Shown here: piece after piece, positions 51,207 to 54,074 of the stretch
Numbering within the stretch: position 1 is the stretch's first letter
Layout: each line of letters opens with the position of its first letter
Origin: Ohtaekwangia koreensis
GTDB lineage: Bacteria > Bacteroidota > Bacteroidia > Cytophagales > Cyclobacteriaceae
Assembly: GCF_900167975.1 (NCBI RefSeq)
Contig: NZ_FUZU01000001.1
Span: 1,088,580 to 1,152,579, forward strand
DNA length: 64,000 bases
Direction: 5' to 3'
Made by a program: the position numbers and the translations under genes
Notes under the pieces: model-generated
The model's database searches: none
What the model was told of the DNA's origin: nothing
Seen by the model: the letters and a program-made list of their open reading frames with translations, nothing else

Positions 51207-52856
51207 TTATTCTACAATCGCGTCAAAGGCACTATTCAATATTTTACCGTTGCGTTTCATTTGTATCCAAATACGATAATTACCGGCCGATGGAAACGCG
51301 TATGGAAATTTTACTGTGGTATGCTCCATGTGCGTAGTGTCTTCCGCGGCATGATACATTGTTCCCATCAGCGTTTTATTTCTTTCCTCTTCACTCATAC
51401 CATCAAGTGCTGCTATTACCTGATCTATACTATCCATAAATACTTCCGGTCTGGATATCTTTTCCCATTGTACCGGGCCTGTCTCTTTTTCAAAACGTGT
51501 TACTATAGTTTGTTGAGACGCCATGGAGTAATTTCCTACTGGATGCAAGTGAATATAGGTGCTGCCATCATCTTTCATAACAACCGCGTGGCCTTGCATT
51601 CCTAAATACGGCTCCAGTATAGCGGGTTTCCCGTGCTCATCCTGAATGGTAAACGTTAACTCATATAGTTTGCCTGCGGAAAATGAAGTGTTTGGCTGAT
51701 GTTCCCAGATCGCGGTTGACCCATCGGGTAAAGTTGTTTTTATACCGGGCTTTCCACATACAACTATATTGTCGGTTAGTGATGGATTATCCGATTCTTT
51801 CATAACCGGATTCGTGCTGAAGTAAGTATCATCGCGGTTCAAGACGGAGGTATCAAGAGAAGTCAAAACCATTGGTGATGGCGATTCGATCTCGATTGTA
51901 TCGGGTATAGTTTCTGAGAAGCCTGTGAGACGCGTGATGTCTGCAAATACCAGGTATTTCCCTTGTGGAAGAGGAGGCAGTTCCGTTATATAGGTAGCAG
52001 AGTCTTTTCGCTGTGGATGGAGATGCGCGAATACATCCATACTTCCGGCACGCACCAGGAACATGTGCATCAATTTACCATGGTCAGGCATAACATACGA
52101 TAATCTGCGCGTATAGTATAGCGTAGGAAGCTTCGTGGTGTCAATCTTGAATTCAAGCGTAGTTTTTTGTGGCGTATAGTTTATCAGCGAAGTTGCCCGA
52201 AGTGGTTTATAGGTAAATCGTTTATAGCGGTTAGACCAGCTGTCCCACCAGTTCTTTCCGCCCCATAGAATCAGGATCAACAGAACAGTACTTATACCCA
52301 CACCAACCCAGCGCTTCCGTACAACTTTTTGAGATATACTTTCCGCAGGCTTAACCAGTCCATCACTGACACTCGCGCCAATGATTGTGATCATCAGTAT
52401 AACCAATAGTGTACATAAGCCCAGCAAGAGCCATCCCAGTGAAGCGGGCATTTCTTTTTGAGCTGTTGACACTGCCATTACGGGTACGATCACTTTTCCA
52501 TTTCCCGTATTGCCATTGATTTCTATTTCGATGCCAGATGTACCGGCACTCATGAGCCAGACGATCCCACGAAAGTGGCCAGGCTCACCTTCTACCGGAA
52601 GAATTTCATCTGCTGTTGGAGTGCCTTCATCTCCTGCAAACCAATAGACCGGTTTACCACCAATAAATTGTATACCGGTAGTCTGGGTATATATATCAAT
52701 AGTAGCCGTGCCCGGAATTACATCTGGAGGAGTGATGAGTATCATTACCGGATAAGCACCTGCTTTTCCTTCGAAGGTTACCCCCGGACTGCCTATATGA
52801 GCATCGATAAGAGAGGGCAGACAACTTAATAGTATAACAAAGAGAATTTTTTTCAT
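51207..52856 (-). CDS. Exported two-domain membrane protein with predicted N-terminal His and HxHP motifs
   Basis: 549 residues. Signal peptide 1-19 ending L-I-D-A; cleavage there would leave His20 as the new N-terminus. N-domain (20-135) opens H-I-G-S-P-G-V-T-F-E-G and has H94. Two hydrophobic helices (about 139-162, 183-199). The C-terminal part has D258-H-G-K and M263-H264, then F-A-H278-L-H280-P; a second copy is G-M-Q-G-H423 ... I-H436-L-H438-P. A His/Met-rich patch lies at 499-512. Such Met/His motifs are seen in periplasmic copper-handling YtkA/FixH-like proteins, but I assign no enzyme activity. Starts 15 bases after the polytopic partner stops, so the two are likely one operon. Confidence 0.65.
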   Translation of the reverse strand: MKKILFVILLSCLPSLIDAHIGSPGVTFEGKAGAYPVMILITPPDVIPGTATIDIYTQTTGIQFIGGKPVYWFAGDEGTPTADEILPVEGEPGHFRGIVWLMSAGTSGIEIEINGNTGNGKVIVPVMAVSTAQKEMPASLGWLLLGLCTLLVILMITIIGASVSDGLVKPAESISQKVVRKRWVGVGISTVLLILILWGGKNWWDSWSNRYKRFTYKPLRATSLINYTPQKTTLEFKIDTTKLPTLYYTRRLSYVMPDHGKLMHMFLVRAGSMDVFAHLHPQRKDSATYITELPPLPQGKYLVFADITRLTGFSETIPDTIEIESPSPMVLTSLDTSVLNRDDTYFSTNPVMKESDNPSLTDNIVVCGKPGIKTTLPDGSTAIWEHQPNTSFSAGKLYELTFTIQDEHGKPAILEPYLGMQGHAVVMKDDGSTYIHLHPVGNYSMASQQTIVTRFEKETGPVQWEKISRPEVFMDSIDQVIAALDGMSEEERNKTLMGTMYHAAEDTTHMEHTTVKFPYAFPSAGNYRIWIQMKRNGKILNSAFDAIVE

Positions 52857-52871
52857 GACCGGGTATAGATG

Positions 52872-54074
52872 TTAACGCATAATTTTTTTCATCCAGTTTC
52901 CCCACGATAAACCTATATGGGAAGAGAGTATAGCAATGAGCAACGCAATGGCTAAGCCTTTTACAAGGTCGAGTCCTGTAGAGACCATCCAGTCACCAAA
53001 AGCATAACGGTATACCCAGGTAGGGTCTGTACCGAAATACCATTTCGATGTGCCAAAGAACCAGTGGCCTTCCGATGCCATCAGAACGTTGGCGAATGGC
53101 CATTGCGCAGCAGCGAAAATAACAAGGAAGCTAACGCCATAGAGCAGCACGCGAAGCCACCGGTTTAGGTGTTGCATTCGGTGCGTGATCAGGTCGATTA
53201 CGATTGCTGGTATTAAAATGAGAAGTGGAAATTCGAAGGGTTGAAAAGAAGTGATCGGATTCAGAACAGGCCCTAGCCGTGGCGTTGCAGGGAACAAAGG
53301 GAGAATCCAGTTCATCACCATTAGCAATATAGTATATACCACGGCCGATTGTGTAGCGCCCCATTTCGATTTGGCTGCAACTGAGAAAGCCACCAGGAAC
53401 AACGGGAAGAGTATAGATGCTACCTTGTAGAAAAGTACGCCATGCATATCGTGGCGCGAAAGATATTCGGACCCAATGGTAAAGATCATCGTGAGTACAA
53501 AACCGCCCGATAATGCAAAGAGTATCGTAAAGCCTTTGTGCGTAATGTTATCTTGTTGGACATGTTCGGTATTCAGATTCTGATAGGCAAGCACGCTGAT
53601 GATCGCTCCGAATTGTATCGTAATCATACCGAGCAAGAGCACCGTGTGAGGAGGCGATAGGATCGTTACATCCAGTCCATAGGTGTTGTGCCACCAGTCA
53701 TCGAAAGGAGCGGAGGTAAGCATTGCTATAGCGCCCCAGATGCAAAACAGGTTGCCCAGCGATCCATAAAATATACCCCAGAACTTTATAGCCTTGCCGC
53801 GTTCAAAGGGCGATCCTGCGAATGTGATTTTCAATACGCGGTATCCTGAAAATATACCGGCTGTAACACCGCCCAGATATATAGCGAGGTGAGGCGCAGA
53901 GAACAAGCCGTCACGGCCAATGCTCATGTGCCAGGATATATCCCAGATTAAACCTATAATAATGCTCAGGGACGAAAGCACCGTAGCATATAGATAGAAT
54001 GGGACAGAGCTTTTGGCGACTGATGCTGAAGAAGCATCGTTCGCTGCCGGAGATTCAAGTGTAATGGTACTCAT
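52872..54074 (-). CDS. Polytopic membrane protein with duplicated D-x3-H-x12/13-H motif
   Basis: 400 residues, nine or ten hydrophobic helices. Motif 1: D45-I-S-W-H49 ... D55 ... P61-H62. Motif 2: D125-D-W-W-H129 ... D135 ... P-P-H143. In both, D and H are at the periplasm-facing end of a helix and the second His begins the next helix. The first copy has the D-x3-H-x12-H spacing of the PmoC Cu(C) ligands (Asp156, His160, His173 in Methylococcus). Further polar residues sit in helices (E203, H208, H211, H298, H302). No characterised family name is known to me. It begins 87 bases after the histidine kinase stop and precedes the HxHP protein. Confidence 0.65.
   Translation of the reverse strand: MSTITLESPAANDASSASVAKSSVPFYLYATVLSSLSIIIGLIWDISWHMSIGRDGLFSAPHLAIYLGGVTAGIFSGYRVLKITFAGSPFERGKAIKFWGIFYGSLGNLFCIWGAIAMLTSAPFDDWWHNTYGLDVTILSPPHTVLLLGMITIQFGAIISVLAYQNLNTEHVQQDNITHKGFTILFALSGGFVLTMIFTIGSEYLSRHDMHGVLFYKVASILFPLFLVAFSVAAKSKWGATQSAVVYTILLMVMNWILPLFPATPRLGPVLNPITSFQPFEFPLLILIPAIVIDLITHRMQHLNRWLRVLLYGVSFLVIFAAAQWPFANVLMASEGHWFFGTSKWYFGTDPTWVYRYAFGDWMVSTGLDLVKGLAIALLIAILSSHIGLSWGNWMKKIMR

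Follow-up and report, generated by a model that had tools for sequence, protein, structure and literature searches.

A two-gene membrane module of Ohtaekwangia koreensis as a probable distant relative of the copper membrane monooxygenases

Particulate methane monooxygenase (pMMO) and ammonia monooxygenase (AMO) oxidize methane and ammonia, and the gene pair described here may bear on how their copper sites evolved. Which of these sites is the active one is disputed (parts of PMC12576850 and PMC6572826); in the former, CuC of pMMO is given as D156/H160/H173 and CuD, some 6 Å away, as N227/H231/H245. The pair lies in a 64,000-nucleotide stretch of the Ohtaekwangia koreensis genome (contig NZ_FUZU01000001.1, positions 1,088,580 to 1,152,579; the window), where two genes, here called C and B (Table 1), stand 15 bases apart on one strand, as an earlier note on this DNA had described. 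The most fitting description of the pair is that of a sister branch to the chassis of the copper membrane monooxygenases, and not that of a pMMO or AMO, since it stays below the Pfam cut-off, consists of two genes where pMMO, AMO and hydrocarbon monooxygenase (HMO) have three separate ones (C, A and B), and lacks the HxH of the CuB site.

The case begins with PmoC. A comparison of the C family with eight PmoC/AmoC sequences in hhalign brought both copper sites into register unaided (P 1.6e-4, probability 50%). The actinobacterial relatives of C, compared with PmoC separately, gave the same register (P 5e-4, probability 31%). Profile alignment of 86 C-family with 86 PmoC sequences, 78 of the latter being viral, scored 42.2 (P 6e-5, probability 64%); of the column-shuffled controls, 300 global ones reached at most 28.0 and 300 block-wise ones at most 30.0, while the reversed profile scored 12.7. 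The PmoC reference fragment was checked against PDB chains. When a PmoC hidden Markov model was run on the 1425 open reading frames (ORFs) of the fetched loci, the first 28 places were taken by C-family members (best E 0.0018), and the C of the window ranked 130 among the 457 ORFs listed. The Pfam family AmoC (PF04896) gave no match for the window's C, and none in its own genome at E up to 10. At this level of comparison single C sequences are near noise against PmoC, whereas the family profile is not. Segment tests, with a Bacteroidota C set holding no actinobacterial row, located the PmoC signal in the CuC hairpin (0/200 shuffles reach the score), while the second hairpin of C did no better than shuffles against the CuD segment (59/200 reach the score) and fitted the CuC segment better (3/200). 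The second motif falls in register with N227/H231/H245 in three profile alignments, with Asp for Asn, although its segment taken alone is not significant. Judged by profile comparison, the C family has homology to PmoC that is carried by the CuC hairpin.

The putative metal ligands are strictly conserved. D45, H49, H62, D125, H129 and H143 are invariant in 81/81 C sequences, the window's included (four broken or partial frames of L025, L027 and L028 were excluded from this alignment, A1), as are W48, R54 and D55, whose W, R and D equivalents are also invariant in the eight PmoC/AmoC; the loss of conservation that would have spoken against the earlier proposal did not occur. The D-x3-H-x12-H motif by itself turns up in 26/1316 non-family ORFs of the fetched loci. 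Followed 30-120 residues on by [DN]-x3-H-x13-H, it turns up in none of the 1316, and this double motif is found in 81/81 C sequences, 5/5 actinobacterial relatives and 78/86 PmoC, the eight rows without it being short frames of 208-214 amino acids (aa). The pattern in C is therefore not due to chance. The earlier note had recognized D-x3-H-x12-H in the polytopic protein but missed D125-x3-H129-x13-H143.

Compared with one another, the two hairpins of C give an alignment at E 2.3e-10 (0/300 shuffles reach the score), in which a one-residue gap accounts for the x12 versus x13 spacing of the two motifs. The five actinobacterial sequences, compared using their own repeats only, give E 5.8e-11 (0/300 shuffles), and the same comparison within PmoC detected nothing. 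Homology of C to PmoC, if real, would mean that CuC and CuD both go back to a single ancestral site that was copied.

The predicted fold of C matches PmoA/AmoA best, with the first 14 fold matches pointing there. Compared with PmoA by sequence, P is 0.014-0.041, but 20/300 shuffles reach the score, so that the similarity is not significant (the 'Bacteroidota' set in this test had 82 rows, one of them actinobacterial). On the strength of the model, C is apparently a PmoC-PmoA (C-A) fusion. The earlier statement that no PmoA-like gene is present overlooked this fold inside C.

Protein B is, as had been proposed, an exported two-helix protein with a predicted amino-terminal His and HxHP motifs: H20 is invariant in 79/79 B sequences, each with A, S or G at the preceding position and an upstream hydrophobic stretch, and the motifs are H278-L-H280-P and H436-L-H438-P. 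The model of B, of modest quality (predicted local distance difference test 65, predicted template-modeling score (pTM) 0.64), shows a beta domain, two helices and a beta region. HxH is absent from the N-domain, as the earlier note had stated, and the CuB site of PmoB (amino-terminal His plus HxH) is thus incomplete despite H20. Against the domain fused to the actinobacterial C-like proteins, the N-domain gives a weak match (P 0.021, probability 2%).

The C-terminal region of B points towards metals in another way. In PmoB no copper was seen in the C-terminal domain (part of PMC6572826). At E up to 0.1, 140 plasmid records match part of the C-terminal region of B, and 93 come from Staphylococcus; in 20 of the 140 records the match was located on B, within residues 214-544 and mostly 255-445. 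In 4/4 contexts the gene for the HLHP protein lies beside genes for a P-type ATPase, CopZ or a heavy-metal-associated domain, and a metal-responsive regulator; the ATPase is labeled copper in the Staphylococcus record and heavy metal in the other three. Seven His and a PYLG are invariant in an alignment of six rows, B accounting for two. The Staphylococcus-type HLHP protein is, from its sequence and setting, a candidate new copper-binding family, on the basis of six of the 93 Staphylococcus rows and one gene context. In that context (L281:4375-5031, on a plasmid), the gene follows those for a copper ATPase and CopZ, and its product, annotated as hypothetical, has the HLHP domain of B.

On plasmids, C-like proteins turned up in Streptomyces, Mycolicibacterium, Leifsonia and Rubrobacter. 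All five complete ones (L189, L197, L198, L199, L200) carry, after the motifs, AxA followed directly by HDPGQG, in appearance a signal-peptidase site whose cleavage would leave His at the new amino terminus. No B was evident among the annotated neighbors of these genes (annotation only; no sequence search was made). Metal genes lie near 4/6 of them: a multicopper oxidase and a cupredoxin in Streptomyces F2; a cupredoxin, a heavy-metal domain and a P-type ATPase in S. mirabilis; two P-type ATPases and a four-helix copper protein in Leifsonia; and a P-type ATPase operon 7-9 kb from the C-like gene in M. chubuense. The M. aubagnense context has a YHS protein and a BlaI/MecI/CopY regulator, and the Rubrobacter context as read has no metal genes. 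In the Rubrobacter copy (L190:5886-7004) no annotated gene covers motif 1, which is in another frame than the annotated remainder. On the M. chubuense plasmid NC_018022.1 (L194, L200, L282), an operon with the annotation methane/ammonia monooxygenase C, A and B occurs together with the gene for the C-like protein and with an HLHP gene that adjoins P-type ATPase genes.

C is found in 12/59 near relatives (its own genome included), 3/296 genomes across the phylum and 5/396 of the class, which makes its distribution patchy; in a one-genome-per-species collection, 374/405 pattern matches encode a relative. Locus counts cover the best 80 of the 405 matches, kept as 79 loci, whose titles name, among others, Chryseolinea, Mucilaginibacter, Dyadobacter and Runella as well as some metagenome-assembled genomes. 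We take these four genera to be Bacteroidota and the named hosts to be aerobes; Dyadobacter, Mucilaginibacter and relatives of Chitinophaga are culturable aerobes. The pair thus belongs to bacteria of soil and water. The linkage of the pair, a check that the earlier note had proposed, is seen in nearly all loci: B adjoins C in 78/79 loci (the exception is L048) and in 12/12 contexts fetched from relatives. In L096, L101 and L105 the usual order is inverted, with B standing upstream. One genome has C-B-C and another C-C-B (L024:5933-10045, from the same genome as L093, and L029:9060-13520), which suggests that C can diversify while B remains single.

Within 5 kb of the pair there are 785 ORFs, of which the 28 largest clusters were viewed; the neighbors carry no family annotation (168 counted separately likewise), and within this scope no catabolic neighbor stands out. 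Large clusters of 25-31 loci look Dyadobacter-bound in the loci viewed. Three clusters recur across genera, in 13, 13 and 7 loci, and to our eye resemble penicillin acylase, Dps ferritin and short-chain dehydrogenase, respectively; L093:2017-4191 and L087:12988-13458 are examples of the first two. Searches of viral contigs for C and of a viral fold library found nothing.

No family above a curated cut-off places the pair elsewhere, an outcome that would have told against the earlier proposal. Neither C nor B matches any Pfam family at E up to 1, CopC and CopD domains included; NCBIfam has none for B and a single match far under the cut-off for C; PDB searches by sequence gave nothing for C and E 0.24 or worse for B. 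Among 25 further rows of family alignment A7, the actinobacterial L198 and L199 have sub-cut-off AmoC matches. Other sub-cut-off matches (Acyl_transf_3 on L197, E 1.2e-5; DUF7473 on L103, 0.0017, and L026, 0.025; others weaker) were provisionally not taken as kin because each touches only one or two members. Bacteroidota or C-A fused members were not found described in the literature covered, with preprints and most subscription papers outside the search, and neither fusion nor Bacteroidota is mentioned in the main text of PMC9038741, PMC12533140 or PMC6215863.

Table 1. Positions, in the window, of genes C and B and of their parts
Feature	Positions	Strand	Length	Basis or remark
Gene C	52872..54074	-	400 aa	ORF; PmoC-like N-terminal half, apparently joined to PmoA-like C-terminal half (family profile, fold)
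C residues 26-167, PmoC-like	53574..53999	-		Four long helices as two repeated hairpins (model helices, internal repeat, PmoC alignment)
C motif 1, D45-x3-H49-x12-H62, CuC counterpart	53889..53942	-		Invariant; segment match to PmoC CuC
C motif 2, D125-x3-H129-x13-H143, CuD positional counterpart	53646..53702	-		Invariant; in register with PmoC
C residues 170-400, PmoA-like predicted fold	52875..53567	-		Limits from 6/14 fold-match rows, beginning at 170-182
Gene B	51207..52856	-	549 aa	ORF; exported two-helix partner of C
B signal peptide, residues 1-19	52800..52856	-		By inspection
B H20, predicted mature N-terminal His	52797..52799	-		79/79 B sequences
B N-terminal beta domain, residues 20-130	52467..52799	-		Model
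B helix 1, residues 140-164	52365..52439	-		Model
B helix 2, residues 176-214	52215..52331	-		Model
B HLHP domain, residues ~255-445	51522..52094	-		Common to proteins encoded beside heavy-metal P-type ATPases

We consider it probable that the pair is related, as a deep side-branch, to the pMMO/AMO copper membrane monooxygenase chassis and that it binds copper; the distant copper membrane system of the earlier note is in this respect supported for C by the PmoC profile and the PmoA/AmoA-like fold. C would consist of a PmoC-like part, made of two helix-loop-helix repeats that each hold a D/H/H copper-site motif, and a PmoA-like part, while B, PmoB-like in its layout, would be exported, expose its amino-terminal His and carry the seven-His HLHP domain. 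The metal is presumably copper, which the HLHP domain might take up in the periplasm and hand over to both intramembrane sites in C, which would bind it and in which it would probably alternate between Cu(I) and Cu(II). The HLHP domain and the metal genes near actinobacterial relatives strengthen the link to metal. Some results weigh against this kinship: the PmoB half is weaker, in that the fold search with the pTM 0.64 model of B returned generic immunoglobulin-like matches and not PmoB, and the PmoB profile gave P 0.19; PmoA lacks significant sequence support; and so does the match of repeat 2 to CuD. The analogy with PmoB drawn in the earlier note survives in the amino-terminal His and in a layout of two helices between two domains; HxH is missing, and neither the profile nor the fold search shows PmoB.

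As to its purpose, we give a little less than even chances to copper handling at the membrane, by which we mean capture, buffering or oxidation of copper; a purpose that is neither this nor an oxygenase seems unlikely. A true O2-activating copper monooxygenase, in which B loads periplasmic copper and a small hydrophobic substrate undergoes quinol-driven oxidation at CuC/CuD-like sites, is somewhat less likely. The invariance of the metal ligands and of W48, R54 and D55, shared with PmoC/AmoC, argues for it, as do a PmoA-like half that seems retained and hosts that we assume to be aerobic. In pMMO, moreover, CuD has been argued to be where catalysis takes place (part of PMC12576850), and the missing HxH need not count against an oxygenase, since verrucomicrobial PmoB is without CuB ligands (part of PMC6572826). 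Against it stand the lack of a conspicuous catabolic neighbor, the Asp in C at the place of the CuD Asn, and the Mycolicibacterium plasmid, where the C-like protein coexists with the annotated C, A and B operon and the nearest metal ATPase genes are 7-9 kb off; the caution of the earlier note on oxygenase activity still stands. We think it rather improbable that the pair serves copper import, export or resistance and shares only an old copper-binding hairpin with PmoC, resembling PmoA by accident: only the CuC hairpin is significant by itself, PmoA has no such sequence support and metal genes accompany both the actinobacterial relatives and the HLHP proteins, but the first 14 fold matches would then be coincidence. 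Convergence, with D/H/H hairpins and a helical bundle that came to resemble PmoC and PmoA without descent, would suit the two non-significant comparisons (PmoA, and repeat 2 with CuD) and is very doubtful in the face of 0/600 shuffles that reach the PmoC profile score and of two halves of C that point to two subunits of one enzyme, in operon order.

Should the kinship with the copper membrane monooxygenases hold, a remote relative with a clear two-hairpin duplication, in culturable aerobes, would serve as an outgroup and as a tractable system in which to test CuC and CuD. The pair would tie the origins of the monooxygenases to copper homeostasis, and could show how the copper sites of a methane- and ammonia-oxidizing enzyme arose. 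We put forward, as a conjecture with rather less than even odds, that it represents an undescribed branch of O2-activating copper membrane monooxygenases, PmoC-PmoA fused and resident in heterotrophic Bacteroidota, and that its repeat records how a single copper-binding helical hairpin, tied at first to copper handling, was duplicated to give CuC and CuD of the methane and ammonia monooxygenases.

Set beside the described systems, C shares with PmoC/AmoC the CuC pattern D-x2-W-H-x4-R-D-x6-H and the CuD pattern [DN]-x3-H-x11-P-x-H, with equal spacings (x12, x13) and order. It differs in the Asp that replaces the CuD Asn, in DDWWH where the eight PmoC/AmoC have NE[WF]GH, in a clear internal duplication that is undetectable in PmoC, in being joined to a PmoA-like half and in scoring under the Pfam cut-off. 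From PmoA/AmoA it differs in that the PmoA-like part shares one chain with the PmoC-like part and has no significant sequence similarity. B resembles PmoB/AmoB in its signal peptide, beta domain, two helices and beta domain, and in the predicted mature amino-terminal His, whereas its N-domain is without HxH, its C-terminal domain has seven conserved His and a profile match is absent. The actinobacterial C-like proteins have both D/H/H motifs in 5/5 complete members and match C with a profile P of 1.3e-13, but carry a fused C-terminal domain that begins at the AxA-HDPGQG site, and a final hydrophobic stretch. The HLHP proteins encoded beside heavy-metal P-type ATPases on Staphylococcus, Mycolicibacterium, Streptomyces and Gloeocapsa plasmids, all annotated as hypothetical, share the seven His and PYLG with B, yet are separate, shorter proteins (218-321 aa by annotation) without its N-domain.
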